A stretch of 45,114 nt of DNA from Myxococcales bacterium. Lineage in GTDB: Bacteria > Myxococcota_A > Polyangia > Polyangiales > Polyangiaceae. The position numbers were made by a program, and so were the translations under genes. The notes under the pieces were generated by a model. It did no database searches. It was not told the DNA's origin and saw nothing but the letters and a program-made list of their open reading frames with translations. The stretch's first letter is position 1. Each line of letters begins with the position of its first letter. Shown here piece by piece: positions 14,346-30,063 of this stretch. Location: NCBI GenBank assembly GCA_023248745.1, contig JAHFDZ010000008.1:1-45114 (forward strand), read 5' to 3'.

Positions 14346-15557
14346 TTAGAAATCGCCGCGGATCACCAGGCCAGTGCCTGTCGGCGACACCTTCATGCGC
14401 CGAGCGAACGTACGATCAGGTCGCAACGGTGACGGGGGTGGGTCCGGCAGATCGAACCAATAAAGCGCTGCTCCCAACGCAAACGCAGCCACACCCACGC
14501 CGAAGCCCGTCCCCGCAGCCACGGTCCAATCGCCTCGATGGCCCAAACGTGCGTCTGCGCGCGTTGCTTCTTCTTGGCTCGTGGATTGGCGATCGTTGAT
14601 CTTCGCGTGCGTCGCAATCGCGTCGTTCTCGGCGCTAATCGCGAGACCTACCGATACCGCGCCAAACAGCACGCTTGCGGTCCCCGTTGCGAACATGCCG
14701 TACGACACCACGCGCGTGGTCGATCGCGGAAGTTGCTTCACCGGCAACTCGCGCGTTTCGCCTCGTTCGACGTTCACAAATGCGTGCACAGGATCAGCGC
14801 CACGTTTGCGAATGAACACGTCGTTGGTACCGTGCTCAAGCTCGAACACGGTCGGCTCCTTTTGAATATTGGCGACATGTTTTTGCTCGATCCAAATTTC
14901 GGCGCCGACATTTTGAGGCGCTCCAATCACAACCAAACGCGCGGGAAGCGGCGTGAGCGTCAGCGCAACGAGTCCCTGCTCTTTTGCGAACGAACGTATT
15001 TTTTCGTCGGTCGTGAAGCCTCTCCGCTGGGCGCGAAATTTGTGTTGGGCGTTCCGGCTCACGAGCTGCCCCACCGTCCAATCCACCTGTTGGTCGTCCA
15101 CGAAGACCTCTGTTCCCTCGCGCGCGCCACCGGGCTCGACATTCAGCGTGACAAGGGTCTTGTCCTCCGCCTGCTTCACTTCTGGTTTTCTTAGCTTGCC
15201 GCGCAGGGCATCGATCAGTCCTTTTGCGTCGTCGGCACGCGGCCCCCGCGCGTCCACGTACTTTGTGAAGTGCTGGATCGCACGCTCACAAAGCGCGTCG
15301 GCGCCCGGATCGTCATGTTCGGCGGCCTGAAGCCATTGCCGACGTTTCGCTTGCGCCATCGCGAAGAGGAACTTCAACTCACCCGCATTCGATTCGTACG
15401 CGCGCTCGAATTCACGGCCTGCTGCTTCATACTTCCCGTCGTCATAGAGCCGGACGCCGCGATCGTAGTCCGCGCTTCCCGTCATCTGCGCCCACGACGC
15501 GATGGGCAGGAACGTCAAGAAGAGGGCAATCGCCGCGGCTCGACATGTGCGTGGCAT
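14346..15557 (-). CDS. TPR/PEGA-like envelope protein
   Basis: Exported protein of about 403 residues. ATG at 15557 is chosen because it gives a classic signal peptide (CRAAAIALFLTFLPIASWA, cleavage after SWA); the frame stays open upstream to 15761 but runs into the divergent kinase gene. TPR-like helices (DYDRGVRLYDDGKYEAAGRE, LKFLFAMAQAKRRQW) precede two PEGA-like beta segments (EGTEVFVDDQQVDWTVGQL and GAEIWIEQKHVANIQKE). Two hydrophobic helices follow near residues 295-360 (YGMFATGTASVLFGAVSVGLA and TGFGVGVAAFALGAALYWF). Gene order of this type, divergent from a Ser/Thr kinase with 106 bp between, is common in myxobacteria and hints at shared regulation. It is a distant paralogue of 8420-9439. 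Confidence 0.78.
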   Translation of the reverse strand: MPRTCRAAAIALFLTFLPIASWAQMTGSADYDRGVRLYDDGKYEAAGREFERAYESNAGELKFLFAMAQAKRRQWLQAAEHDDPGADALCERAIQHFTKYVDARGPRADDAKGLIDALRGKLRKPEVKQAEDKTLVTLNVEPGGAREGTEVFVDDQQVDWTVGQLVSRNAQHKFRAQRRGFTTDEKIRSFAKEQGLVALTLTPLPARLVVIGAPQNVGAEIWIEQKHVANIQKEPTVFELEHGTNDVFIRKRGADPVHAFVNVERGETRELPVKQLPRSTTRVVSYGMFATGTASVLFGAVSVGLAISAENDAIATHAKINDRQSTSQEEATRADARLGHRGDWTVAAGTGFGVGVAAFALGAALYWFDLPDPPPSPLRPDRTFARRMKVSPTGTGLVIRGDF

Positions 15558-15663
15558 TGAGTTCGATCGTCGCTCTTCGAGCGCACAAGTGCAACATGGC
15601 CACAAAACGCCCCAAATCGCGACCTTGCGCATCGCACTCGCTCCTGCGACGCTTAGAGTTGAT

Positions 15664-17100
15664 ATGGCGGATCCCGGCGGCATAGACGGCGAGCGAGCCG
15701 CATTGTTTGGCGCGACGAACATGCTTGAACGAGGCGTCGACGAACCCCTCACCCCCGGCACGATCGTCGGTGAATTTTCGATCGAGGCGCAGATTGGGCA
15801 AGGTGGCTTCGGTGCCGTCTATCGTGCGAAGCACCCGCTCATCGGCAAGCGAGCAGCTATTAAGGTCCTCTCCGACGACGTCGGCGCGAGTGCCAACGCG
15901 GTTGCTCGTTTTGTTCAAGAAGCGCGGGCCGTAAACGAAATTCAGCACCCGAACATCGTCGACATCTTCAGCTTTGGTCAGCTCGTCGACGGCCGCCATT
16001 ACTTTGCGATGGAGATCCTTGACGGGCAAACTTTCGACGCATTCCTTCGCAAGCGCGATCCCATCTCGGTAGGCGAGCTCGTGTGCGTCCTCGATCCGGT
16101 CGTGAGCGCGCTCGACGCCGCGCACAAGAAGGGCATCATTCATCGCGACTTGAAGCCCGAGAATATCTTTCTGTGCTTCCACGAAGGGCGCATGACAAAA
16201 GTCAAGTTGCTTGACTTTGGAATCGCAAAACTGTCGGGCGACTCTTTGCAAGGCGGGTCCAGTCCGCCCAAAACCAAAACGGGTTCACCCCTTGGCACAC
16301 CGGCATTTATGGCCCCCGAGCAAGCGCTCGGCCGCGAGGCTACTGCGGCAGCCGATGTGTATGCGCTCGGCGTGATTTGCCACCTTGCGCTCACCGGTGA
16401 GCCTCCATTTTACTCCGACTCACTTATCAACTTACTTGCCCTTCACATCAACGCCCCACCACCGCCAATGAGCATGCACAACCGAGACGTGGCGCCTGAG
16501 CTCGACGCCATTGTCTTGCGCATGCTCGCGAAGGCTCCAGAAGTTCGCTTTGCCTCCGCAGGCGAAGCGCTCGATGCGCTCGTAAGCGCGGCAAAAGAGG
16601 CGGGCCTTGAAGCTGATCGACGCGCGCAGATCGTACTCACAGAGCAGCCCGCGCACCCGCGTACCCGCCGCGCGAACCAAGCCACCGCTGCGAGCGCCGG
16701 CACAGGCAAGGCGCTCACGACCGACGCACCGCAGGTAAAGCCGCGGAGTCGCGCCGCGGTGATTGCAACGGCAATTGCTGCCCTCGTAATAGGTGGCGTG
16801 TCGATTGCCACCTACGCTCGCCTGACGAGCGCAGTTCCGTCGAAGCCACTTTCGTCGGCACCACTAAACGACGTCCCCACCGCTTTGCAAACGCTGAGCG
16901 CAACCGGATTGCCCAACGCTGCGCCCTCGGTGGGATCAGCCGCCCCACAACCGTCCGGATCGGCGCCTTCAGCCGCACCGCTAAGCCCTCTCGTCGCGCC
17001 GCCCCCTCGCGGTGGCCGGAAGGAACCCAAGCCGCCGCCCCCCGGAGCGAGCGCCTCGGCCGTACCGCCGAAGCAATCCCAAATCGACGGTCTGCGCTGA
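15664..17100 (+). CDS. Hanks-type Ser/Thr protein kinase, single-pass membrane
   Basis: Eukaryotic-like kinase of 478 residues from ATG 15664. All key elements are present: Gly-loop GQGGFGAVY at 45-53, ATP-binding Lys67 (AAIKVL), Glu86 in helix C, catalytic HRDLKPEN at 160-167, DFG at 184-186 and the APE motif at 217-219 after GTPAF. It should therefore be active. The kinase domain ends near residue 315. One transmembrane helix (364-385, AAVIATAIAALVIGG) leads to a Pro/Ala/Ser-rich extracytoplasmic tail without PASTA or other sensor domains. The last codons form part of a 21-bp direct repeat continued just past the stop. The divergent TPR/PEGA protein is a plausible functional neighbour. Confidence 0.93.
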   Translation: MADPGGIDGERAALFGATNMLERGVDEPLTPGTIVGEFSIEAQIGQGGFGAVYRAKHPLIGKRAAIKVLSDDVGASANAVARFVQEARAVNEIQHPNIVDIFSFGQLVDGRHYFAMEILDGQTFDAFLRKRDPISVGELVCVLDPVVSALDAAHKKGIIHRDLKPENIFLCFHEGRMTKVKLLDFGIAKLSGDSLQGGSSPPKTKTGSPLGTPAFMAPEQALGREATAAADVYALGVICHLALTGEPPFYSDSLINLLALHINAPPPPMSMHNRDVAPELDAIVLRMLAKAPEVRFASAGEALDALVSAAKEAGLEADRRAQIVLTEQPAHPRTRRANQATAASAGTGKALTTDAPQVKPRSRAAVIATAIAALVIGGVSIATYARLTSAVPSKPLSSAPLNDVPTALQTLSATGLPNAAPSVGSAAPQPSGSAPSAAPLSPLVAPPPRGGRKEPKPPPPGASASAVPPKQSQIDGLR

Positions 17101-17123
17101 ACCAATCCCAAATCGACGGTCTG
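17074..17123 (+). repeat. Direct repeat across the kinase stop codon
   Basis: A 21-bp sequence ending in AAATCGACGGTCTG occurs at 17074-17094 (last kinase codons) and again, identical, at 17103-17123. The two copies flank the TGA stop with a 29-bp period. This looks like a recent small duplication at the 3' end of the gene. Confidence 0.85.
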
Positions 17124-17146
17124 TCGCCTTGGTACACGCACGCCCG

Positions 17147-17181
17147 TTGCCAGACGAGCCTTCAGTTGCGATCCTCCCTCA
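17147..17181 (+). promoter_or_regulatory. Conserved two-box leader of FG-GAP lipoprotein gene 1
   Basis: TTGCCAG (17147-17153), 12 bases, TTGCGAT (17166-17172), 9 bases, then ATG 17182. The same boxes with the same spacing precede the two following paralogues. TTGCCA followed 17 bases later by GATCCT has sigma-70-like spacing and would place transcription start at or next to the ATG, suggesting a leaderless mRNA. No Shine-Dalgarno site is present. The promoter reading is inference. Confidence 0.5.
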
Positions 17182-20016
17182 ATGGGGCGAGCGGTATGGA
17201 GGGTTGGACTGGTCGCTACGCTCTGCACGCTTCAGTGCGCGAAGCTCGACTACCTCGGAAGCGATTGCGGCAACGGTGCGGTAGACCCCATCCACGAGGA
17301 CTGCGACGGCGCAAGCTTTGGCTTGGCACCTTCGGGCAATCGCTTGCTTGTTTGCGGCAAAGTTGCCGCGAGTGCTTGCCGCTTCGTTTGCGGGAAGGAC
17401 TCGCAATGCCCGAGTGATGACTGGGCGTGCAAGGCAGGCGTTTGCATTAAGATTCCTGACGGCTTTACGGCGCCTGGACTCGACGTTCTGGGGCCTGCGG
17501 GATCAGTCAAGTCAGTTGACTTTGACGCTAACGGCACAGACGACGTGCTCGTTGAGCCACTCGATGTCAATGCACCGTACATCGCTTATTTTGGAATCGC
17601 CGATCCAGCGAAAGCGAAAGCGCAAACACTGTTTCCTGCAGGCGCGATGTGCGTAGCGGACGCCCCACGAGGAGAGGGCGCAGAGAAGCAAGCCCGCGCC
17701 ACACTGGTTGCAAGTTTCGACGATGGCATGCAAGTGACGATGGCGCGCGCAAGAGAATCAGGTGAGCACAACGCGACGACGGAGCTTGAGCCGCTTTCTT
17801 TCGCGTCTGCAGAAGTTCGGTCTGCAGGCATTGATTTTCTCTACTCCACTCGGTACGGCGGAAATCTCAATGGCAGACTTACGGCGTGGGTACACGGTGG
17901 GGATGGCGAAGACGACACGCTTTCAAGTTTTGACTACTTGCAAACGCGGCTGCTTTCGATGCGTGCACCCGTTGACACGCATCGCATCGTGACCGTCGTG
18001 CCCGCAGACGCGGGCAATGGCTGTTTGCGACTTGCCATTTTCACGCGCGGTGTTCTAAGCCCCGATGCGGGCAGTCTTCAAATTCTAACGCCGGACTCGA
18101 ACTGCACTTGGGCGAAGTACAGCACGCGGCTGTTGGAAGGACACTATCCGGCAAGTCGCGGACACCAAGGGGTTTTCGTCGCCGACCTCGATGGCGATGG
18201 CGTCAACGATCTGATCGTGAACGCGCGAAAAGCGACGCCAGCTGGATCGCAAACCGAATCGTTCGTGCTCCGCGGCCCGCTTGACGGTCAACTTGTTCCG
18301 TTACTTGACGACACGTCTCTTCCCAATGGCGCTCAAAGTGTCGTGATCGCGGCCGCAACGGTGAAAGGTTACAAAAAACCAGCCCTGCTGACCTGTCAGC
18401 GTTACGGAACGCTCAACCCCGACGGGCTGTGCTTGAGCGAATCTGGCAGAACCCTCTCGGTATTGTTAATTCGCTTTCCAAACGATGCCGCGAGCGCGTA
18501 CCCAACCCGCGAGACGCTCGCGCTCGATCCCCTTGTCGCTGGCTTTTCGGATCTCAACGGCGACGGCCAAGATGATGTCTGGGCTTGGTCGCAAGGCAGC
18601 ACGGGGCCGCGGATTTTTGCGGCAACGCCGAGCGGATTTTTTAGCACCGGCCTCGTCGAACACCGGTCATCAACGCCGCTCGGCATCACGTCGATCATGA
18701 TCGACAAATTGCCGCGCGACATCATCGCGCTCACCGAGTCAACCGATTCGTCTGCCGGCCTCGAGAGCGCCGTGCTCGTCACGCGTGGCAACCGCGTTGC
18801 TTCGCAATTGAACGCGAGGCAAGTGGCGCGCGTCGCTGGGCGTGCCCAACTTGCCGCGTTTGAGCCCACCTACAACACGACGCCGGCGCTGATTCCCCTC
18901 GTCGCGTGTACGTCCGCCGATTGCGACCCGTCGCCCGATTCACGCAAAATCGCTTCGTTCGACGTCACGACATTGCGGCCATTGGCGAGCCAATGGCTCG
19001 CATCCCCTAGCCTCCTCTGGTGCGGAACCGCCGTCGAACCGCACCATTTCTTCACGGACCACCCTCACGTGCGTGCTCAAGTGAGCGCTTTCACACTCAC
19101 AACGACCTCGGGCAGAGTCGCTCTCGAACCTGACACACGCGCGTTGACGGTGTCAGCGGGAAGGTACGGCACGTCAGCTCAAGGACAGTTCTTCGGCGCG
19201 CGATTGCGTTGGGGACGACTCCGCGCCGGACGAATCCCCGATCAGCTGGACTGCACGCAAGAGATCTCTCGCGTGACCGAAAGCGTCGCCGTTGCTCCGA
19301 TGCTTGCCGCAAGTGATCCTCGATTTGCGGGTAGCGATGTGTCGCTCTTACTCGCAACCTATTCGCAACGTGCCAACAGCCCGTTTGGAGAATTCGCGGG
19401 GCGGGCCTTTGCCGTGAGCCCTTCGGCGAGCCCGAAGACGGTCTCGATTGTGCCCGAGCCGGCATTCGGAGGCTACCGCGCTATCTACGCCGAGGCCCAC
19501 GACGTCGACGGCGACGGCGACAATGACTTTATCGTTCTCGAACGCGAACGCGGCATCGATGGAGATCGCACGCGTGCTCGGCCGGTCCTCTACATGAACG
19601 TACCCTGCGAAAGCTCCGGCAGCGGCCGATGCCTCTTCGTCAAAAATATTGTCGATACCCAAGGCAAGACTCTTGACCGTTTTGACGCGGCCTCGGGTGA
19701 GGGGCTCGCGCTCTCACGTTCACCCACTGACGGTGGGCTCGATAAGGTATGGCGCGAGTGGTGGCTCGCAAGCATCCGACAGGACGTCGACACGAAGACG
19801 GGCATGACACACGATAGTGTGGTCACCCAACGCATTCGCGCAGTTGGCACTGACGATACGATTGCCTTCGACACGACAAGCGAAAGGCACGAACTCACGC
19901 CGCTCCAACTCAACGCCCAAAACCAACATCTGGCTTGGGGCGACTTTGATGGCGACGGCGTTTTGGACCTTCTCTACGCAAGCGACAAAGGGTCGCGGTT
20001 GCACAGGCGTGAGTAA
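17182..20016 (+). CDS. FG-GAP/VCBS repeat lipoprotein, paralogue 1 of 3
   Basis: Surface lipoprotein of 944 residues. The signal peptide (RVGLVATLCTLQC) ends in a lipobox Cys. A Cys-rich head follows with CGNGAVDPIHEDCDG, resembling the DUF4215-type motif of myxobacterial proteins, and paired cysteines to about residue 90. The rest is beta-rich with five DxDxDGxxD-type calcium loops: VDFDANGTDD, VADLDGDGVND, FSDLNGDGQDD, HDVDGDGDND and WGDFDGDGVLD. These are FG-GAP/VCBS blades of a likely beta-propeller. It ends with a basic tail (GSRLHRRE). It is followed by two paralogues of the same layout. FG-GAP proteins bind ligands or partners at the cell surface; no partner is evident here. Confidence 0.85.
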   Translation: MGRAVWRVGLVATLCTLQCAKLDYLGSDCGNGAVDPIHEDCDGASFGLAPSGNRLLVCGKVAASACRFVCGKDSQCPSDDWACKAGVCIKIPDGFTAPGLDVLGPAGSVKSVDFDANGTDDVLVEPLDVNAPYIAYFGIADPAKAKAQTLFPAGAMCVADAPRGEGAEKQARATLVASFDDGMQVTMARARESGEHNATTELEPLSFASAEVRSAGIDFLYSTRYGGNLNGRLTAWVHGGDGEDDTLSSFDYLQTRLLSMRAPVDTHRIVTVVPADAGNGCLRLAIFTRGVLSPDAGSLQILTPDSNCTWAKYSTRLLEGHYPASRGHQGVFVADLDGDGVNDLIVNARKATPAGSQTESFVLRGPLDGQLVPLLDDTSLPNGAQSVVIAAATVKGYKKPALLTCQRYGTLNPDGLCLSESGRTLSVLLIRFPNDAASAYPTRETLALDPLVAGFSDLNGDGQDDVWAWSQGSTGPRIFAATPSGFFSTGLVEHRSSTPLGITSIMIDKLPRDIIALTESTDSSAGLESAVLVTRGNRVASQLNARQVARVAGRAQLAAFEPTYNTTPALIPLVACTSADCDPSPDSRKIASFDVTTLRPLASQWLASPSLLWCGTAVEPHHFFTDHPHVRAQVSAFTLTTTSGRVALEPDTRALTVSAGRYGTSAQGQFFGARLRWGRLRAGRIPDQLDCTQEISRVTESVAVAPMLAASDPRFAGSDVSLLLATYSQRANSPFGEFAGRAFAVSPSASPKTVSIVPEPAFGGYRAIYAEAHDVDGDGDNDFIVLERERGIDGDRTRARPVLYMNVPCESSGSGRCLFVKNIVDTQGKTLDRFDAASGEGLALSRSPTDGGLDKVWREWWLASIRQDVDTKTGMTHDSVVTQRIRAVGTDDTIAFDTTSERHELTPLQLNAQNQHLAWGDFDGDGVLDLLYASDKGSRLHRRE

Positions 20017-20042
20017 GGGCTAGCCGTTCATTACGACCTTCC

Positions 20043-20077
20043 TTGCCAGGATCGCGCACGCTTGCGATTCTCGTTCG
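20043..20077 (+). promoter_or_regulatory. Conserved two-box leader of FG-GAP lipoprotein gene 2
   Basis: TTGCCAG (20043-20049), 12 bases, TTGCGAT (20062-20068), 9 bases, then GTG 20078. Spacing is identical to the leaders at 17147 and 22943, and CCTTCC just upstream is shared with the third leader. The possible promoter is TTGCCA, 17 bases, GATTCT, with the start codon at the expected transcription start. Confidence 0.5.
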
Positions 20078-22930
20078 GTGCGTCGGATCTCGTGCAACAT
20101 CGGAATGGTCGTAGCGCTCTTCACGATCCAGTGCGCGAAGGTCGATTTTCTTGGCAGCTATTGCGGCAACGGCGCGGTCGATTCATCTGGCGGTGAAGAT
20201 TGTGACGGAGACAGTTACGTTTCGTTACGCGAAAGTATCACGAGGCACAATTGGCAGTGCGGGGCCGAAGGGCGAAGCGCGTGTCACTTTATTTGCAGCA
20301 AAGATGTGCCTTGCCCCAGCGACAATTGGGCATGCGGCGCAGGTATTTGCGTCAAGAAAACTGACGAATTTGATAGGGAGCCGCTCGACGTCGTTGGCCC
20401 TGCAGGCCGCGTCGCGGCGATCGATCTTGATGGCGATGCGACCGATGACGCCATCGTCGAACCTATCGACGAGAATGCCCCACACATCGCGCGCTTTTCA
20501 ATTTCCGATTCTATCAGGTCGAAAGCGACAACGCTCTTTCCAGCAGACGCGGTAATTGCCCTGACGCGCACAAATGCAGCGCAACTCAAAGGAACAAGCC
20601 CGACGGAAACGGTCACCCTCATCGCGCAACTTGCGCATGGAGCACAAGTCACACTCGCAAGCGCAAGTGAAGGGATTGATCACACTCGCGAACTTGAAGG
20701 CTTGCCGTTGGTGTCAGAAGAGATCAACGCCGCAGCGATCGATTTTCTCTATCCCGTAGCCGGAACGAATCACGTCGCGCTGTTTGCGTGGGTCCATGGG
20801 GCGAATGGAAACGACGACGCACTTGCACTCTTTGACTTCACGGAAAGAACGACCAAGACGCTGTTCAATTTGCCCGTCGTCGACCGGTACGGAGCGCCGC
20901 TGACGGAGCATCGCATCGTCGTCGCGATTCCGCCCGATAGAGAAGCGCCTTGCATGCGCCTCGCCGTGTTCACCCGCGATGCGGAAGCGCCGGCTTCCGG
21001 AGAGTTGCAAATACTGCGGCCAAACGCGGCGTGCGACTGGTCCGTACCGCATGGGTCCTATGCAATCGCTGGACGTTACCCCGTTACGCCACCTGGAAAA
21101 AACGCGGTGTTCGTCGCCGACGTCGACGGCGATGGTTTGAACGATCTTATGGTCAACGCGAGGCACAAAACAGAGTCAAAAACAGACCCCATCTACCTGC
21201 ATGGTCCACTAAACGGACAGTTCGCTTCGTTTACGGGCATTGCATCAGGCACCGGCGCACTGCAGAACGTGCTGCTCGGCGTGGGCAAGCTTGCGGGGTA
21301 CAAGCACCCCGTATTCTTGGGGTGTCAGCGCTACGGTGTTCTCGCTGAAAACCTCTGCGCGACAGACGACGGAGACGATCTGTCCTACAAAGTCATCTTC
21401 GCCCCGAACGCCACCGCAACTTCCTATCTTACCGTGCCGCTCGAGTACGTCGATCGTGACGTCCGCTCAGCAGGCTTCTCTGATCTCAATGGGGATGGGC
21501 TCGACGACGTTTGGGCTTGGCACGTTGGTGCAACGGGTCCTCAGATCTTCGAAGCCACGCCGACGGGTCATCGCGAGACCGCGTTCCTCGATTACGCGTC
21601 ATCCAATCTACTCGGCGTAGCGTCCATTTCCCTCGATGGCTCGTCAGCTCGCGATCTCATCGCGGTCACCCATTCGAGCGAACAGGTCGGTAGCGCTAGC
21701 CGCACCAGTGAAGTCCGGTTGGCAAGAGGCAATCCCGATATCGAAAAAATGAGCGCCTCGCACGTCGTCCGCGTTCCTGGGCGTGCGTCACTTTCGGCGC
21801 ACGACGCCATCGGGAAAGGCGCTCCGTCGCTCGTAACGCTCGCGTCATGCGTGTCGGACAATTGCAGTGAGGCGTCAAATTCGCGCGTATCGTCATCCTT
21901 CAACGTCACCACCCTCAGACCCCTCAGCACCGGATGGCTCGCAGCTCCCGCATCTCTTCCTTGCAGCCCAGCGGACCTCATTTTTGGCGAAGTGTTTGAG
22001 CACCCCAATTCGCGTCCACGCATGGGCAATCAAGTCGGCGCCGTGACGCAGTCGAACGATGCTAGCGACGCCCAAATCGTCACAGTGGCTGCCTGGCAGA
22101 ACGTGTTTGACCCCAATAACCCTTCTATTTTTGGCGGACTCCAACCCGTGGGCATTGTTCGATGGGGACGACTGCGATCGACCAAACTGATTACAGACGT
22201 CTCATGCAGTTTTATCTTGGGCCTGACCGAGAGCATCGCGCTCGCGCCATCTGCGACCGAAGGATCAGATTCATGGATCATGTTGGGCACGCTGTCGAAG
22301 TCAAAGACGTGGACGCCCACAGCGACGGATCTCAAAGGCGTCGCCTATCTCCTGACACCTTCGACGGAATCAAGGGCGATTACGATTGTCCGCACCGCGT
22401 CCGAGAGCGATGGCTACCGCGCCGTCTACGCCGAGCATCACGACGTTGACGGCGACGGCGACAATGATTTTGTGGTGCTCGAACGCGTCAATGGCCTCGA
22501 CGGAGACCGCACGCGCGGCAGGCCCGTGCTCTACATGAACGAACCGTGTGAAAAGGACGCTACCCGGCGTTGCCTTTTCGTAAAGAAAATTGACGCATTC
22601 GAAGTGGCGTCGGGCGAAAGTTTCGCGTGGCAACGTTCCCACGTCGACGAAGCGCGCGCTTCCAAGTGGCCTGAGTGGTGGCTCGCGACGATTCGGCACG
22701 ACGAAGCGGAAGCGAAAGATACGTTCGTCACCCAACGCATTCGCATCGCCGGCACCGATCGCAACGTCACGTTCGAAGCCACGAGCGAGAAGCACGAGAT
22801 CGACGTGCCCAAAATCGGCGCAACGCAGCAGCGCCTGACGTGGGGCGACTTCGACGGCGACCAGATACTCGACTTGCTCTACGTCACCGACCGTGGCTCT
22901 CGTCTCTATCGACGGCAAATGGCGCGCTGA
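20078..22930 (+). CDS. FG-GAP/VCBS repeat lipoprotein, paralogue 2 of 3
   Basis: Lipoprotein of 950 residues with the same plan as its upstream neighbour. The signal peptide (NIGMVVALFTIQC) ends in the lipobox Cys, and CGNGAVDSSGGEDCDG begins the Cys-rich head. Five calcium-loop motifs lie at matching positions: IDLDGDATDD, VADVDGDGLND, FSDLNGDGLDD, HDVDGDGDND and WGDFDGDQILD. The tail is GSRLYRRQMAR. GTG at 20078 is supported by the leader spacing shared by all three genes. The paralogues have diverged clearly in sequence yet keep length, cysteines and calcium loops, so all three look functional. Whether they form hetero-oligomers is open. Confidence 0.85.
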   Translation: MRRISCNIGMVVALFTIQCAKVDFLGSYCGNGAVDSSGGEDCDGDSYVSLRESITRHNWQCGAEGRSACHFICSKDVPCPSDNWACGAGICVKKTDEFDREPLDVVGPAGRVAAIDLDGDATDDAIVEPIDENAPHIARFSISDSIRSKATTLFPADAVIALTRTNAAQLKGTSPTETVTLIAQLAHGAQVTLASASEGIDHTRELEGLPLVSEEINAAAIDFLYPVAGTNHVALFAWVHGANGNDDALALFDFTERTTKTLFNLPVVDRYGAPLTEHRIVVAIPPDREAPCMRLAVFTRDAEAPASGELQILRPNAACDWSVPHGSYAIAGRYPVTPPGKNAVFVADVDGDGLNDLMVNARHKTESKTDPIYLHGPLNGQFASFTGIASGTGALQNVLLGVGKLAGYKHPVFLGCQRYGVLAENLCATDDGDDLSYKVIFAPNATATSYLTVPLEYVDRDVRSAGFSDLNGDGLDDVWAWHVGATGPQIFEATPTGHRETAFLDYASSNLLGVASISLDGSSARDLIAVTHSSEQVGSASRTSEVRLARGNPDIEKMSASHVVRVPGRASLSAHDAIGKGAPSLVTLASCVSDNCSEASNSRVSSSFNVTTLRPLSTGWLAAPASLPCSPADLIFGEVFEHPNSRPRMGNQVGAVTQSNDASDAQIVTVAAWQNVFDPNNPSIFGGLQPVGIVRWGRLRSTKLITDVSCSFILGLTESIALAPSATEGSDSWIMLGTLSKSKTWTPTATDLKGVAYLLTPSTESRAITIVRTASESDGYRAVYAEHHDVDGDGDNDFVVLERVNGLDGDRTRGRPVLYMNEPCEKDATRRCLFVKKIDAFEVASGESFAWQRSHVDEARASKWPEWWLATIRHDEAEAKDTFVTQRIRIAGTDRNVTFEATSEKHEIDVPKIGATQQRLTWGDFDGDQILDLLYVTDRGSRLYRRQMAR

Positions 22931-22942
22931 TCGCGGCCTTCC

Positions 22943-22977
22943 TTGCCAGACCCGAGCAACCTTGCGATCCTTTTCGG
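22943..22977 (+). promoter_or_regulatory. Conserved two-box leader of FG-GAP lipoprotein gene 3
   Basis: TTGCCAG (22943-22949), 12 bases, TTGCGAT (22962-22968), 9 bases, then ATG 22978. It begins 12 bp after the stop of the preceding paralogue. It decides the start of gene 3, whose frame is open far upstream inside gene 2. Confidence 0.5.
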
Positions 22978-25815
22978 ATGCGTCGGGCAGCATTCGCAGT
23001 AGCCACGCTAAGCGTGCTCGGCACGGTTCAGTGCGCAAGGCTCGAATCGCTTGGATCCGCTTGCGGCAACGGCGCCGTTGAATCCCAGCGCGAGGATTGT
23101 GACGGAAGCAGCTACATTTCAACCGCGACGCCAACCCCTGGGCGCGCGTGGGCTTGCGAGCCCGCCGGCGGGGTCAACGCCTGCCGCTTTGCGTGTGGTC
23201 TAAGCGTGTCATGCCCCAACGATGATTGGGTTTGTCGCTCCGGTATTTGCGTCAATGTTGTTGACGAATTTGTTGCGACGCCACTCGACAAAGTTGGATC
23301 GGTGGGCCACGTGAGCGTGACCGACCTCGATGGCGACAAAGTGGATGATGTTCTCGCTGAGCCGATGAGCATCAATGCACCGTACGTGGCGCACTTCGCG
23401 ATCGCGGATTCGGCAGGCACAAGCACAACGCCACTATTTCCTGCCGAAGCGGCGGCACTTGTTCAATATTCGAACGGTTCACCTCCCGCGATAGCTATGC
23501 AACTTGACGATGGCGCGCGCGTGACGATCGCTCGCGCTGCCGGGCTGCGGGAACTCGAAAGCGTGCCTCTGGCGTCTGCAGAGGTGCAAGCGGCGGCCAT
23601 CGACTTCCTCTCTCCCGCGGAGAATACGACCATCTTCACGCTGTATCCGGGAGGTGACACCGTTCACTTGGCGCTGTTCGCCTGGGTGCACGGCGCGAAG
23701 GGGAATGACGACACCTTTTCACGCTTCGACTTTACGAACAGCGCTCGCACCGATTTTTTCAAGATGGCCGCGATGGATCAACACGGCGCACAGCTCGATG
23801 AGCATCGCATCGTTATCGCCATTCCGAGTGACAGCAAGATCCCTTGCACGCGATTCGCCGTCTTTACGCGTGACGCAGCAGATCCTAGTTCTGGGCTTCT
23901 TCAAATTCTAACGCCCGAGCTCACGCGGTGCGATTGGTTGAGACCGCACAAAACCTACGCCATCCCGGGTCGCTATCCCGCTTCGCGCCAAGCAGGCGCC
24001 GTGTTCGTTGCCGACCTCGACGGCGATGGAGATAGCGATCTGATCGTGAATGCGAGAAAGACGACCGAGTCGGCCTCTGAACCGATGGTGCTTCGCGGTC
24101 CACTCGACGGGCAATTGGTTCCAATTCTTGACAATAAAGTCCAAACCGTCGTCGTGGGAGTGGGCCGCGTGCAGGGCTACGCACATCCGGCGCTGCTGAC
24201 GTGCAATCGCGTTGGCGCGCTCGTCGATGAGGGCCTGTGCATCAGCGAATCGACATTGCAAACGTTGATGGCGATTCGATATCCAAACGACGACGCAAGC
24301 GCCTACACCGGCGCCCTAGTTGCGGCGGACTCGATCGTCGCCGGCTTCGCCGATCTCAACGGCGACGGCTACGACGACATCTGGACATGGGGTCGCGGCG
24401 GCACAGGGCCGAGCTACATTGAGACCACCCCCGACGGTTTTTTTCGAAGCAGCCTCATCGACCATGGTTCACCTGCCGTCATCAGCGTGGCATCGGGTTC
24501 ACTCGACGAGTCCAAGGCGCGAGACCTCGTCGCGGTCACAGAGCTCGCCTCTGACTTAGGAGTCACGAGCGAGGTGCGCGTCACAAGAGGCCATCCACTC
24601 GCGCAAGAAATGGTCGCAAAAGTTGTCGCGCGATTGCCGGGACACGTGAAGGCAACCGTACATGACGCCTTTGCTCGCCGTGCGCTTCCGTCGATCGCGC
24701 TCGTCTCGTGTGATTCAAGCAATTGCAACCAAGCTTCGAACTCGCGCGATGCGGCTCCGTTCACTGTGACGCCCCTTCGTCCACTCGCACCCGACTGGCT
24801 CGCAGCGCCTGCCTATCTCGGTTGCTACGATCCACAAACGGCGCTGTTCGACCGTACCGATCCCCATCCGCGACTGCGCAAGCGTCTGGGCGTCGTCGCA
24901 CTTCCGACCAAGAGCACAACGGGAGTACCTGATGTGCAAGTTGTGACCGTCGCTACCGGGAAGTTCGCGAGCGGAAGCATCGTCGCCACGCTTCGATGGG
25001 GTCGCCTGCGCGCAGGTAAGGTTGCTGATCAAATCCGCTGCGGCGACGCCGAGTCCATTCCGATCGCGCACCTTACCGAAAGCGTCGCTCTGGCACCCAC
25101 GATAACCTCCATCGCCGATGCTTGGCTCATGCTCGGCACGTACTCGAAAACGACAAAGACCGTCCCCGACCCGCGCGATCTCAAAGGCGTCGCGTACGCG
25201 CTCACGCCTCTCGCGCCGCCCAAAGAGACACGCATCATCCCAGCACCCGCATTCGGCGACTATCGCGCGATCTATGCCGAGTCGCATGACATCGACGGCG
25301 ACGGCGATAGCGATTTCGTCGTCCTCGAGCGCAAGGACTCGCCAGACGGCACAAGCGCCGCCCGGCCAGCGTTTTACGTAAACGCACCGTGTGACGACGC
25401 GCCACAGGAGCGCTGCTTATTCGTTAAGTACATTGACATGCAAGTTAAGAAACCTGACGGAACGGCCGACCATTTTTTTGTGAGCGCATCGGGCGATGGC
25501 GTTTCACTCCAGCGCTCGCACATCGATGAAGCCCGCGACGCGAAGTGGCCCGAATGGTGGCTCGCCATCCTTGTGGGCGACGCCGCCGCAGGCACTGGTA
25601 AGGTGGTCACCCAGCGAATTCGGATCGCAGGCGTCGATCGCAACGTGACGTTTGCACCAAGCACCAGCGACCCTCCTCGCGAAGTCCCTACGCCGAGAAG
25701 CGATGCGACCCATCAAGAAGTCGCCTGGGGCGACATCGACGGCGACGGCGCTCTCGACCTTCTCTACACAACCGACCGCGGCTCGCGCTTGTATCGGCGC
25801 GCGCAGCAGAAGTAG
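22978..25815 (+). CDS. FG-GAP/VCBS repeat lipoprotein, paralogue 3 of 3
   Basis: Lipoprotein of 945 residues. The frame is open from 22675, but ATG 22978 gives the signal peptide (RRAAFAVATLSVLGTVQC) and the conserved leader spacing, so the longer version is an artefact overlapping gene 2. The Cys-rich head has CGNGAVESQREDCDG. Calcium-loop motifs are TDLDGDKVDD, VADLDGDGDSD, FADLNGDGYDD, HDIDGDGDSD and WGDIDGDGALD. The basic tail reads GSRLYRRAQQK. Together with its two neighbours it forms a tandem triplet that probably arose by duplication of a whole gene including its 5' leader. The function of the family is unknown; display at the outer surface is likely from the lipobox. Confidence 0.85.
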   Translation: MRRAAFAVATLSVLGTVQCARLESLGSACGNGAVESQREDCDGSSYISTATPTPGRAWACEPAGGVNACRFACGLSVSCPNDDWVCRSGICVNVVDEFVATPLDKVGSVGHVSVTDLDGDKVDDVLAEPMSINAPYVAHFAIADSAGTSTTPLFPAEAAALVQYSNGSPPAIAMQLDDGARVTIARAAGLRELESVPLASAEVQAAAIDFLSPAENTTIFTLYPGGDTVHLALFAWVHGAKGNDDTFSRFDFTNSARTDFFKMAAMDQHGAQLDEHRIVIAIPSDSKIPCTRFAVFTRDAADPSSGLLQILTPELTRCDWLRPHKTYAIPGRYPASRQAGAVFVADLDGDGDSDLIVNARKTTESASEPMVLRGPLDGQLVPILDNKVQTVVVGVGRVQGYAHPALLTCNRVGALVDEGLCISESTLQTLMAIRYPNDDASAYTGALVAADSIVAGFADLNGDGYDDIWTWGRGGTGPSYIETTPDGFFRSSLIDHGSPAVISVASGSLDESKARDLVAVTELASDLGVTSEVRVTRGHPLAQEMVAKVVARLPGHVKATVHDAFARRALPSIALVSCDSSNCNQASNSRDAAPFTVTPLRPLAPDWLAAPAYLGCYDPQTALFDRTDPHPRLRKRLGVVALPTKSTTGVPDVQVVTVATGKFASGSIVATLRWGRLRAGKVADQIRCGDAESIPIAHLTESVALAPTITSIADAWLMLGTYSKTTKTVPDPRDLKGVAYALTPLAPPKETRIIPAPAFGDYRAIYAESHDIDGDGDSDFVVLERKDSPDGTSAARPAFYVNAPCDDAPQERCLFVKYIDMQVKKPDGTADHFFVSASGDGVSLQRSHIDEARDAKWPEWWLAILVGDAAAGTGKVVTQRIRIAGVDRNVTFAPSTSDPPREVPTPRSDATHQEVAWGDIDGDGALDLLYTTDRGSRLYRRAQQK

Positions 25816-25825
25816 GTTCTAACAA

Positions 25826-26139
25826 ATGGCGACGGACAAATTCGAAATGATTGCTGTCGCGGTCTCCCTGTCGTCCATCTCCTCACGATTGCGCTCGTCA
25901 TCGCGTTCGTTCGTCAACGGAGCGTCACGGCCATGGTGCTGATGATCACATCCGCTTGCCTCAACCTCTTTAGCTCTGCGCTGTCTCTCGTCATGGTGAG
26001 CGTGCGCACGGATTTCATCTTGGCCACTTCGATCGCGACGAACGCTGTCAACTTGCTTGGTCACGCCTCGCTCATCGCAAGCTGCGTCGTACTCGCCACC
26101 GCCCGAAAAGCCGACCCGCAACCCACCCACCGATGGTGA
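25826..26139 (+). pseudogene. Small three-helix membrane protein gene, apparently frameshifted
   Basis: Two adjacent frames together read as one protein of about 104 residues. ATG 25826 begins ATDKFEMIAVAV. The coding signal then shifts to the other frame around 25855-25870 and goes on through LPVVHLLTIALVIAFVRQRS, MVLMITSACLNLFSSALSLVMVSV and LATSIATNAVNLLGHASLIASCVVL to a stop at 26139. These are three clear transmembrane helices. The change corresponds to one missing base. In the first frame translation would stop at about 38 residues; in the second, only ATG 25933 could start, losing helix one. It lies 10 bp after the third FG-GAP gene. It may be a pseudogene or an assembly error; no slippery heptamer for programmed frameshifting is visible. 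Confidence 0.55.
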
Positions 26140-26249
26140 TGCGCGCCATTGATCGCTTACGTCCGAGCGCGATCCCCACGTGGCATCAGCCAACGCGGTT
26201 AGCTGGTGGTCCACGTCCGACTCACCCAAGCGCCCCGCGATCCCCGACT

Positions 26250-27530
26250 CTATCGGACGTATCGAATTTGAATCGCGCGGTCGCCCGGAGTTGCGAACTT
26301 CGTGCGGTAGATAACCGCCGATGCACACGTCATTGCAGCCGGCGAGATCGCGGGATTGAAGCGAGCCGCTTGCACTTGCCCGTCGGCACCGATGCGCAGC
26401 AGCAACGACGTCGTAACGCTCGCGCCGTTCGAATTCTCTTCGTCTCGCTTTCCAAAGACGACAGCGTCGGACTCAATGCAACGTTGAACGCCGCTCGTGA
26501 TCTCTGCCGCTGGATCGAGCAGGCGAACAGGTGCTTTCGGAGCTTCGGGCTCTTTGTCAGGCGGCGGCGCTGCTGGGTTTTGCGAGTCTGACTGCGATGG
26601 CGAAAGAAGTTCTGATACTTGACCATTTGTGCCCAGGGCACCATTTTGCAGGTTTCGAAGCGCAAGCGGCGTCTTCGAGAGCGGCGTGCTCGGCTCCTTT
26701 GGTCCCATTGCAATCGACGGCACGAGTTCTGCCCAACGGCGCAACGTCACCGGCACACGCACGCGCGATTGCTCGCGATCGACGCGTAACGTTTCGCGAA
26801 CACGATTCGCGTTGAACTCGGCGTGCACCGGCGCAATGAGCACCTCGCGCGTACCATCGACGGTACCAAGCGAAATCACGCCTTCACTCAAGTCAACCGT
26901 GACGAACTCGCCTTCACGCGCAACGCGCAAGTGTGTTCCATGCACGGCGACGCGTGCTTGACCCACATCAACCGCGAATGCATCGCCCGTCTTGATGTGC
27001 TGCACTTGCGCTTCGACAGCACCTGTCTCGAGTGCAAGCACAAGCGTTGGAAGCGCATCTTTTACAAGTGCGCGTGTCCCTGATTCAAACGTGTAGGCGA
27101 TTCCGCTCGGGTCAACACGCTCGAATACAACGCGCGCGCGCTCGGCTTCGAGGCGCTGACCTCGATGAAGTGCCGAACCGTTTTGTGCCGATTGATGATC
27201 AATTTTGATGTCGCCTGCGCCATCGATCGAAACGACCGTTCCGACCGAAGGACCGAGCGACGCGGGCAATGCCGCGAGCGGCGTAGGATTGCGTGCGGCA
27301 TCACCGCGATTTGCGGGCACTGCGATCCAGATTCCGGTTGCTGCCGCAGCGACTGCAAGCGAGCCCACACCCCAAGCGATGCGGCGACGACGCTCAAACT
27401 CGCCGCGCGAACGCTCAGCCGCGATGCGCTGGAACAACCGATCGTCAACCTCGGCCCAATCAATTTCGGGCGTGGCTGCATCGGCGTCGCTCTTGGCGTT
27501 CCGCACAAACTCGTCATACGGGCGGGTCAT
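26250..27530 (-). CDS. FecR-like regulator with AgmX-like C-terminal segment
   Basis: Probable anti-sigma or sigma-modulating membrane protein of 426 residues. ATG 27530 overlaps the sigma-factor stop in ATGA. A cytoplasmic N-terminal part (DEFVRNAKSDADAATPEIDW, with QRIAAERSR) is followed by one transmembrane helix (IAWGVGSLAVAAAATGIWIAV). A FecR-type beta domain comes next (AVDVGQARVAVHGTHLRVAREGE, VTVDLSEGVISLG). After a Pro-rich linker the last 90 residues (VQRCIESDAVVFG, LLLRIGADGQVQAARFN, ISPAAMTCASAVIYRTKFATP) resemble the AgmX/PglI C-terminal domain of myxobacteria, with its two cysteines. The pairing with the ECF sigma gene is the main evidence for an anti-sigma role; the added C-terminal domain may sense periplasmic events. 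Confidence 0.8.
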   Translation of the reverse strand: MTRPYDEFVRNAKSDADAATPEIDWAEVDDRLFQRIAAERSRGEFERRRRIAWGVGSLAVAAAATGIWIAVPANRGDAARNPTPLAALPASLGPSVGTVVSIDGAGDIKIDHQSAQNGSALHRGQRLEAERARVVFERVDPSGIAYTFESGTRALVKDALPTLVLALETGAVEAQVQHIKTGDAFAVDVGQARVAVHGTHLRVAREGEFVTVDLSEGVISLGTVDGTREVLIAPVHAEFNANRVRETLRVDREQSRVRVPVTLRRWAELVPSIAMGPKEPSTPLSKTPLALRNLQNGALGTNGQVSELLSPSQSDSQNPAAPPPDKEPEAPKAPVRLLDPAAEITSGVQRCIESDAVVFGKRDEENSNGASVTTSLLLRIGADGQVQAARFNPAISPAAMTCASAVIYRTKFATPGDRAIQIRYVR

Positions 27531-28150
27531 GGCGCATCTCCTTGTGCGGTGCGGGAGAATGTTCCCGCGATGCCGCGCAGCGAGGGTTCCTCGCGTAGCA
27601 TGCCCTCGATCTCGCGCCGCGCGTAAAAAAGACGCGTGCGCACGGTGAGAACGGGGCAACCAACCATTTCGGCAATCTCGCTCGGGCTGTGACCCTCGAG
27701 TTCGTGTAGGATAAACACATCTCGCTTCTTGTCGCCGAGACGCTCCAGCAGCGCGGAAAATGCGCGGATGCGCTCACGGCGCTCCGCATCAACATCGGGA
27801 AGTGCTTGTGAATCGCGAAGCTCATCTTGCCAGCCTTCTGAAGTGGCTGAAAATAGGGGTCGGCTCTTCTGGGCGCGGCGCGCCATGAGAACAACGTTGA
27901 CCGTTACGCGATGAAGCCACGTGCTGAATTTCGACTGTCCGCGAAAATCCTTGAGGCTGCGATACACCTGGAAGAACACCTCTTGGACGAGGTCGTCGAG
28001 ATCGCCGCGCGGGCCGACCATTCGGAAAACGAGGCGGGCGACATCGTTTCGGTGTTTTTGGTAGAGCGCGCGAAAGGCAGCTTGGTCGCCTTCGCCCGCT
28101 CTCGTGATAAGCGCATCATCGTCTGTCATCGGACGTGCCAAAGGTTGCAT
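27527..28150 (-). CDS. ECF RNA polymerase sigma factor
   Basis: Sigma-70 family ECF factor of about 207 residues. Region 2 is visible as LITRAGEGDQAAFRALYQKH through GDLDDLVQEVFFQVYRSL and KFSTWLHRVTVN. Region 4 runs from LLERLGDKKRDVFILHELEG through SPSEIAEMVGCPVLTVRTRLFYARRE. The start is uncertain: ATG at 28150 or 28129 puts region 2 close to the N-terminus as usual, while GTG at 28264 would add a Pro/Gln-rich tail. None has a clear ribosome site. It overlaps the FecR-like gene by 4 bp and should be controlled by it. Many FecR-linked sigma factors activate surface protein genes. The target genes here are unknown. Confidence 0.9.
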   Translation of the reverse strand: MQPLARPMTDDDALITRAGEGDQAAFRALYQKHRNDVARLVFRMVGPRGDLDDLVQEVFFQVYRSLKDFRGQSKFSTWLHRVTVNVVLMARRAQKSRPLFSATSEGWQDELRDSQALPDVDAERRERIRAFSALLERLGDKKRDVFILHELEGHSPSEIAEMVGCPVLTVRTRLFYARREIEGMLREEPSLRGIAGTFSRTAQGDAP

Positions 28151-28232
28151 CGGGGGCTGCGGCGGTCCCTGCGGCGGCTGTCTTGACCGCGCATTCGAGA
28201 ATACGCCTGAATGCGGAGTGACGACGTTCGAT

Positions 28233-28429
28233 TGAACTAATGTTTGAGCCGGTAAAGAAGGCACATCCCATTGAGATGCGTCGACGGGTCACAACGTTCA
28301 GAACTTTGGTGCGACTCACACATCGAGCACAACGTACACAGTCAACCCACTGAACTGTTGCTACTGCACAAAAAGTGTGCTCCTGAAACTAGACCTGCGC
28401 CGATCGGCGCGCGAAGCTGAACTAATGTT
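28233..28429 (+). repeat. 12-bp direct repeat TGAACTAATGTT (two copies)
   Basis: TGAACTAATGTT occurs at 28233-28244 and 28418-28429, both between the sigma-factor gene and the next lipoprotein gene. Each copy contains the ATG of a micro-ORF. It may be a regulator or sigma-factor site, or a shared start context. The rest of 28150-28747 holds no convincing gene, terminator or RNA that I can see. Confidence 0.5.
28240..28353 (+). CDS. Possible micro-ORF (37 residues, basic)
   Basis: ATG 28240 to TGA 28353 encodes a 37-residue Arg/His/Thr-rich peptide beginning FEPVKKAHPIEMRRRV. Its start lies within TGAACTAATGTT, the same 12 bases that begin the micro-ORF at 28425. No Shine-Dalgarno site is seen, and it sits opposite a possible N-terminal extension of the sigma factor. 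Only the repeated start context supports it, so it is a weak candidate. Confidence 0.2.
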   Translation: MFEPVKKAHPIEMRRRVTTFRTLVRLTHRAQRTQSTH

Positions 28430-28508
28430 ACTCGTAACGATCGCTGTAGTTGGTGCACTTGTGGCGGTTGACCTTCGAGACCTTTGGTCGCGGCGCACGA
28501 GTCGCTAG
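28425..28508 (+). CDS. Possible 27-residue single-pass membrane microprotein
   Basis: ATG 28425 to TAG 28508 encodes 27 residues: a hydrophobic segment (LLVTIAVVGALVAV) followed by an amphipathic basic end (DLRDLWSRRTSR). This is the classic layout of a small inner-membrane protein with a cytoplasmic C-terminus. It lies alone in the gap between the sigma-factor start and the lipoprotein at 28747. There is no clear Shine-Dalgarno site upstream (GCGAAGCTGAACTA). GTTACTCGTAAC at 28427-28438, inside the ORF, is an imperfect dyad and could also be an operator. An ORF of this length can arise by chance, but such composition is unusual for random GC-rich DNA. Confidence 0.35.
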   Translation: MLLVTIAVVGALVAVDLRDLWSRRTSR

Positions 28509-28746
28509 GCGCAATCAGCGGCGCTTAAGCCTCAGACGAGACCTGGGGTCAAGCGGCTGCTTTGGCGCGATTTTTCTGCCCTGGCCACGGCATTGCGCAA
28601 GCTTTGGCGCGCAAAGATTCACTGTTTAACGGCCACACGCGAAGAAAATTGGTAGTTGCAGACACTGGTAAAGAACGCGCGCACAAGATGTGTCCGCATC
28701 ACCTGATCAGTGTCCTGCGCGCCAAGCTCGCGCTACTGGAGTTTGC

Positions 28747-30063
28747 ATGAAGCGTTTGTCGTTGCCCGCCCTCTTTCTCGCGTCCCTTTACGCCGCTTGC
28801 TCGGGCGAAAAGTCTGACGGTCGCTTTCCCGATGCCTCGACAAACGGCGATGCCTTCACGTTCACACCGGACACCGGCCCTGGACTTGGCGATGCCCCTT
28901 CCGAGTGCGTCGGTCTCGAGTGCCGTCGACCCAACTGTGGAGGCAGCAACACGACCACGTTGACCGGAACGGTGTACGCGCCCAACGGTGCCGACCCGCT
29001 TTATAACGCGCTCGTCTTTATCCCCAACGGGGAGCTGCAACCCTTCACGGACGATGTCACATGCGAAACGTGCGCAACGTCGCTTGGCGCAACCGCAGTA
29101 TCGGCGGCCCTCACCGATACATCAGGACATTTCGAACTGAAGGACATGCCAGCAGGCGACGACATTCCACTCGTCGTTCAAGTCGGGCGGTTTCGTCGGA
29201 AGATCATCCTTCCGAAGGTTAACGACTGCAAAGAGAACACCGTCGCGAAAGGCGACGCGCGCTTGCCGAAGAACACCACCGAAGGCGACATCCCACGCAT
29301 CGCAATCGTAACGTCGACGTACGATCCAACCGAGTGCATCTTGCAGCAAATCGGCATCGATTCGTCAGAGTTCAGCGGAAAGACCGGCACTGGCCGCATC
29401 CACCTCTACACGGGCAACGGCGCCACGATTAGCGGCGCGATGCCTGGCGCTTCGTTGTGGGACACCGTTGAGAACCTGAAGCACTACCAACTCATCGCAC
29501 TTCCGTGCAGCTCGTACCCAACAGACGATCACGGCAAGGACACCATCTTTCAGTACGCGAGTGCCGGTGGCCGCGTCTTCGCGACCGATTTGTCTTACCC
29601 AGTCGTGTCCGCAAACCACATCGAATGGATGAAGACGGGCGACTTCACATCACCCGGAAGCTTCGTCAGCCCTGCGCAAATTGACCAGACGTTTCCAAAG
29701 GGGCAAGCGCTTGCCGAGTGGCTGCAAAAGCTCGGCGCAGCAACGAACGGCACCATTCCGCTCACCGACACCTACAGCCGCGTGGGCAAAATCAACGCGC
29801 CCGCGCAGCGTTGGCTCTACTCAGGAACCAACACCCAGTCGTACACCTTCAACACGCCGACAGACGCCGAAGAGAAGAATCAGTGCGGTCGCGTATTTTA
29901 TTCGAGCTTCCACATCGGAAGCGGACGCGGCGGGTTCGGCACGTTCCCCTCGTCGTGCACGTCAAAGCCGCTTACGCCGCAAGAGCGCGTGCTCGAATTC
30001 ATGCTGTTCGACTTGGCGTCCTGCGTTCAGAGCGACAGCACAACACCCGTCGTTCCGCGCTAG
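28747..30063 (+). CDS. Lipoprotein with carboxypeptidase-regulatory-like domain
   Basis: Exported lipoprotein of 438 residues. ATG 28747 is supported by GGAG at 28738-28741 and by the signal peptide it opens (KRLSLPALFLASLYAACSG, lipobox AAC). A short Asp/Thr/Gly-rich linker and a Cys cluster (ECVGLECRRPNCGG) precede a beta-sandwich of carboxypeptidase-regulatory type (TLTGTVYAPNGADPLYNALVFIP, with TDTSGHFELKDMPAG). The second half (PRIAIVTSTYDPTECILQQIG, YQLIALPCSSYP, YASAGGRVFATDLSYP) looks like an alpha/beta domain resembling class I amidotransferase or ThuA-like folds. That match is by pattern only. Similar proteins are multicopy in myxobacteria and have no established function. Confidence 0.8.
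   Translation: MKRLSLPALFLASLYAACSGEKSDGRFPDASTNGDAFTFTPDTGPGLGDAPSECVGLECRRPNCGGSNTTTLTGTVYAPNGADPLYNALVFIPNGELQPFTDDVTCETCATSLGATAVSAALTDTSGHFELKDMPAGDDIPLVVQVGRFRRKIILPKVNDCKENTVAKGDARLPKNTTEGDIPRIAIVTSTYDPTECILQQIGIDSSEFSGKTGTGRIHLYTGNGATISGAMPGASLWDTVENLKHYQLIALPCSSYPTDDHGKDTIFQYASAGGRVFATDLSYPVVSANHIEWMKTGDFTSPGSFVSPAQIDQTFPKGQALAEWLQKLGAATNGTIPLTDTYSRVGKINAPAQRWLYSGTNTQSYTFNTPTDAEEKNQCGRVFYSSFHIGSGRGGFGTFPSSCTSKPLTPQERVLEFMLFDLASCVQSDSTTPVVPR

Follow-up and report, generated by a model that had tools for sequence, protein, structure and literature searches.

A conserved two-box element beside the start codons of tandem FG-GAP genes in a Myxococcota lineage: candidate leaderless promoters

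Three tandem genes for FG-GAP proteins in a Myxococcales genome each carry, hard against the start codon, a two-box element that is probably a sigma-70-type promoter with an extended −10, one per gene, producing a leaderless mRNA. The genes lie in a window of 45,114 nucleotides, the whole stretch analysed here; it corresponds to contig C427 of the draft genome, which totals 6.13 Mb. In the proposed layout, a −35 hexamer TTGCCA, a 17-bp spacer and a TG-extended −10 (TTGC-GATYCT) would be followed after 6 bases by the start codon. RNA polymerase would initiate at the first base of the start codon (A or G), ∼7 bases past the −10, and ribosomes would start on the resulting leaderless mRNA (with a 0–2-nt leader in relatives) without the aid of a Shine-Dalgarno site. 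The promoter would have been copied along in tandem duplication and held by selection while its surroundings were replaced. We infer all three parts of this account (the promoter, the RNA start site and leaderless translation) from sequence, the last of them from the position of the boxes, the absence of Shine-Dalgarno sites and a genome-wide class of leaderless-type genes.

The products of genes 1–3 match the FG-GAP family (Pfam PF13517 at 44–58 bits, cut-off 26.9) and are 46–49% identical to one another; the genes are tandem paralogues with 47–61 bp between them. Their N-termini suggest that the products are lipoproteins. Gln precedes the presumed lipidation Cys in the window proteins (LQC, IQC, VQC), which is unusual for a lipobox; distant homologues (loci L112 and L119–L126) carry the usual Ser, Gly or Ala at this position. 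Some of these distant homologues have no promoter of their own; their start codon overlaps the stop codon of the gene before (TGATG). Kinase-like genes, read by eye, also adjoin the homologous genes of relatives (neighbours of L112 and L113), and a 21-base direct repeat (CAATCCCAAATCGACGGTCTG) at 17074–17094 and 17103–17123 runs from the end of the kinase gene into the gene 1 leader. At its other end, the array is convergent with an ECF sigma/FecR gene pair. The named genome collection yielded one related locus, which carries the homologous array and comes from the MAG ‘Myxococcales bacterium isolate nzgw256’; this places the organism with the Myxococcota. An Rfam search of 15000–29000 gave no match. 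A terminator scan between genes 1–3 gave no more hits than shuffled sequence did, so transcripts begun further upstream, those of the kinase gene included, may read through.

The initial annotation had placed the boxes TTGCCAG and TTGCGAT exactly 35 and 16 bases before the start codons at 17182, 20078 and 22978, and these offsets are indeed identical in all three genes, as is the gap of 6 bases from the −10 hexamer to the start codon. Its description of variable surroundings also holds: the spacers are no more alike than chance would give (identity 0.33 among the three genes, against 1.00 for the boxes), and four-fold degenerate sites are 0.36–0.37 identical between the window paralogues. None of the three genes has AGGA, GGAG or GAGG in the 20 bases before its start, and the genes that had been put forward for contrast do have Shine-Dalgarno-like sites, at 28747 (ctGGAGtttgcATG), 39815 (aaGGAGcatagaagcATG) and 44839 (taGGAGaaacgacgTTG). 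A promoter scanner run at canonical thresholds did not call the predicted promoters of genes 1–3. Two other interpretations were tried and dropped. A sigma-54 promoter of the −24/−12 type would place GG ∼10 bases before the GC of TTGC, and inspection by eye found no GG there in the three genes; base-pairing between GATYC and the 16S rRNA tail fails for GATGCT, the form in the homologue from a relative (G001).

Table 1. Features of the array, its predicted promoters and its neighbours, with genes elsewhere that carry variants of the boxes
Feature	Position	Strand	Description
Serine/threonine protein kinase gene	15502..17100	+	Directly 5′ of gene 1; Pfam PF00069, E 3.5e-44
Box 1, gene 1	17147..17153	+	TTGCCAG; predicted −35 hexamer TTGCCA
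Box 2, gene 1	17166..17175	+	TTGCGATCCT; predicted TG-extended −10, hexamer GATCCT 17170–17175
FG-GAP lipoprotein gene 1 (putative)	17182..20016	+	944 aa, ATG start; predicted transcription start 17182 ± ∼1 base; gap of 6 from −10
Box 1, gene 2	20043..20049	+	TTGCCAG; predicted −35
Box 2, gene 2	20062..20071	+	TTGCGATTCT; predicted extended −10, hexamer GATTCT 20066–20071
FG-GAP lipoprotein gene 2 (putative)	20078..22930	+	950 aa, GTG start
Box 1, gene 3	22943..22949	+	TTGCCAG; predicted −35
Box 2, gene 3	22962..22971	+	TTGCGATCCT; predicted extended −10, hexamer GATCCT 22966–22971
FG-GAP lipoprotein gene 3 (putative)	22978..25815	+	945 aa, ATG start
FecR-domain protein gene	26250..27659	−	Probable anti-sigma partner
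ECF-type sigma factor gene	27527..28264	−	
Exported TPR protein pair	G000:C4:16123-16160, G003:C245:22535-22572		TTGC-N15-TTGCGACGCT-N6-GTG; proteins 69% identical, spacers diverged
PlsC-like acyltransferase pair			TTGGGY-17-GATACT with TGC, N6, GTG; 92% identical
Phosphatase-like protein pair			TTGCGC-17-GACCCT, gap 8 or 5/8, CGC not TGC before hexamer; 96%
Single lipoprotein-like gene			TTGACC-17-GACTCT, gap 7

Eight upstream regions from four species of one genus were compared: three from the window, three from G003 and one each from G001 and G002. G003 has a tandem array of three homologues (matched segments 42–51% identical in protein), each preceded by TTGC-N15-TTGCGATYCT. The G001 leader reads TTGCAAC-N12-TTGCGATGCT and that of G002, a weaker form, TTGATTC-N12-CTGCGATTCT. 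The G001 and G003 homologues, with proteins 35–51% identical, keep TTGC-N15-TTGCGATnCT, and no Shine-Dalgarno site lies upstream of the homologous genes of relatives. With G002 left out, TTGC and TTGCGAT are 100% identical across seven regions from three species, and spacer identity is 0.28; the invariant columns are TTGC, TTGCGAT, the following nCT and one isolated base on either side, upstream and downstream. The initial annotation had counted a lack of conservation in relatives among the outcomes against it, and the boxes are kept in two other species and, more weakly, in a third. The pattern goes beyond chance or mere duplication, since the boxes are 100% identical though synonymous sites of the paralogues are saturated (36%). 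That the boxes are functionless remnants of a recent tandem duplication or of gene conversion is suggested by the tandem paralogy of the three genes; with flanks, spacers and synonymous sites at or near saturation (0.27–0.45), and the same boxes kept in two other species, this is hardly credible.

The conserved columns look like those of a promoter. Box-to-box distance is 12 in all eight regions, and the −10 lies 6, 6 and 6 bases from the start codon in the window, 7, 6 and 6 in G003, and 8 in both G001 and G002; a rigid pair of boxes with a start codon shifting by 0–2 bases is what would be expected of a −35/−10 pair with initiation 7–9 bases downstream. The TG-n ahead of the hexamer is invariant in seven upstream regions, as are A at −11 and T at −7, and TTG stands 17 bp from the −10 in 8/8, with C rather than A as the fourth base in 7/8. 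Sigma-70 prefers T at −12. This T is absent, and G is found there in all eight regions; retention of this non-consensus G would make more sense were the site recognised by another sigma factor or by an overlapping regulator.

A rival reading is that the boxes form a direct-repeat operator for a transcription factor, the two TTGCnAK copies lying 19 bp apart, and that the true promoter is somewhere else. In its favour, both boxes share TTGC at a fixed distance. However, in relatives box 1 keeps only TTGC (TTGCATC, TTGCAAG, TTGCAAC; TTGATTC in G002), whereas seven bases of box 2 and also the CT are retained. Position is also tied to the start codon within 2 bases, and 47–61 bp from one gene to the next is scant space for a separate promoter. 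We consider the operator improbable to a high degree and favour a promoter with leaderless transcripts over it.

Genome statistics point to a class of genes into which genes 1–3 would fit. In a 1.01 Mb sample with 554 gene calls, TANNNT stands 6–7 bases before 32/554 called starts and 51/8437 internal in-frame ATG/GTG codons (Fisher 4e-18), with a sharp peak at gaps 6 and 7, although these class rates are rough because the calls came from a simple home-made gene caller. A Shine-Dalgarno-like site was seen in 0/32 of the TANNNT-preceded starts compared with 108/522 of the others (p 0.001), which indicates that Shine-Dalgarno-led and leaderless-type genes coexist in the genome. TTG-17-NANNNT at a gap of 6–8 is ∼6-fold enriched near starts (14/1345 versus 15/8437, p 8e-6); at control gaps of 3–5 and 10–12 it is not enriched near starts. 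Genes 1–3 fit the leaderless-type class with GATYCT in place of TANNNT, a replacement that would be offset by the TG extension and the TTG −35. GANNNT on its own shows no enrichment before starts (19/434 versus 342/8437), and the common leaderless −10 has T at −12, so GATYCT promoters would be a minority form.

The initial annotation had proposed looking through the genome for the exact pattern before start codons. It precedes the three array genes and no other gene in the 6.13 Mb, so that of the two outcomes that were together to count against the annotation, a lack of enrichment elsewhere was found for the exact string and a lack of conservation was not. Exact TTGCCAG-N12-TTGCGAT occurs only in these three copies in the whole 6.13 Mb genome, and exact TTGC-N15-TTGCGATYCT only before FG-GAP genes across the four genomes of the genus. 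A one-mismatch search returned chance or coding-internal sites only, bar homologues and a few orthologue pairs, and hits with up to four mismatches showed no start-codon peak at +35 apart from the three genes. When two mismatches were allowed and a start codon was required, most hits were again chance or inside coding sequence, and orthologous pairs stood out. These variants, TTGnnn-17-GAYnCT, mostly TGC-extended and 5–8 bases 5′ of the start, precede unrelated genes (Table 1; the protein names were read by eye from sequence, except for a weak TPR match). One orthologous pair, CTGCC..TTCCGATYCT (G000:C305 and G001:C4), was dropped, as its codon-like pattern of differences looks like coding sequence. 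Separately, a distant FG-GAP paralogue in the same genome (L118, G000:C341:290-3007; ∼25% identical) has TTGGCA-18-GACTCT with TGC, 9 bases before ATG, possibly a relic of the same promoter. Because orthologous pairs of unrelated proteins carry variants, the two-box element is more plausibly a promoter type shared by several unrelated genes than a signal specific to the array. The earlier suggestion that the boxes form a promoter with transcription from the start codon itself is supported by the rigid spacing, the invariant −35 and extended −10 columns, the leaderless-type class and these variants, and would extend to each of the three genes.

The same boxes could instead be the −35 and −10 recognised by a specialised, alternative sigma factor whose small regulon consists of envelope genes; the mRNAs would still be leaderless. 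G at −12 and the whole of TTGCGAT are invariant in seven diverged regions, which is more than sigma-70 would demand; in four genomes the exact pattern is limited to the FG-GAP family, and an ECF sigma/FecR pair adjoins the array. On the other side, variants with a TTGACC or TTGGGY −35, together with the TANNNT class, grade into the sigma-70 pattern, and we judge a specialised factor unlikely. The neighbouring ECF factor itself makes a poor candidate. Autoregulation is usual for ECF factors. The block upstream of the ECF gene that is conserved in a relative (GCAACAGTTCAGTGGGTTG) holds nothing box-like, the best match having 5 mismatches, homologues included, so autoregulation is not seen; and no FG-GAP gene was seen beside the G002 homologue of this ECF gene. 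With no box copy at its own gene, the adjacent sigma factor is not supported as the driver of the boxes, nor is the FecR-domain protein as part of an array regulator. This lowers the idea of a specialised sigma factor and does not remove it, as another of many sigma factors could act. The block 5′ of the ECF/FecR pair, CTTTTTGTGCAGTmGCAACAGTTCAGTGGGTTGrCTGT, is conserved in G001 and may be the pair's own promoter. A narrower version, in which a dedicated alternative sigma factor reads TTGC-N15-TTGCGAYnCT to yield a few leaderless mRNAs encoding surface lipoproteins and further envelope proteins of this myxobacterial lineage, is a long shot; if true, it would tie a single sigma factor to a single way of initiating translation.

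The sigma-70-type leaderless promoter has relatives among known systems. Like leaderless genes with TANNNT, genes 1–3 have a −10 at 6–7 bases before the start, no Shine-Dalgarno site and, on our reading, a separate promoter for each gene; unlike them, the −10 here is GATYCT, which the TG extension and TTG −35 would compensate. Extended −10 sigma-70 promoters (TGnTATAAT; mycobacterial TGNTANNNT) share the TG dinucleotide one base upstream of the hexamer, along with A at −11 and T at −7, but the array differs from them in having G at −12, in also keeping a −35, and in a transcription start that would coincide with the start codon. The −35 consensus of ECF promoters is of the GGAAC type. The array resembles these promoters in its strict two-box pattern, few targets and adjacent ECF/FecR pair, and departs from them in lacking a GGAAC-type −35 and a box copy at the ECF gene itself.

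A TANNNT −10 by the start codon marks leaderless genes described in Deinococcus-Thermus and Actinobacteria (Zheng 2011, PMC3160421; Cortes 2013, PMC3898074; Zhong 2025, PMC12340547), and the −10 motif published for leaderless genes of Deinococcus has the same gap of 6–7 as here (PMC12340547). Leaderless mRNAs are common in M. tuberculosis, where no −35 motif was found, and among 33 delta-proteobacterial genomes, 8 were predicted to contain leaderless genes, at a mean of 15.8% of genes. Our literature search, partial in coverage and weak as evidence of absence, found no transcript mapping of myxobacterial leaderless genes. Leaderless genes are already known elsewhere, and the array promoters are a well-conserved variant of them.

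What the array would add is a case in which comparison alone points to leaderless-type promoters under strong selection in a Myxococcota lineage. It suggests that such promoters can work with a −10 that lacks the usual T. A compact, conserved set of this kind is suited to a direct test of housekeeping versus alternative sigma factors. Recognition of leaderless-type promoters may also help to correct start codon calls in such genomes.
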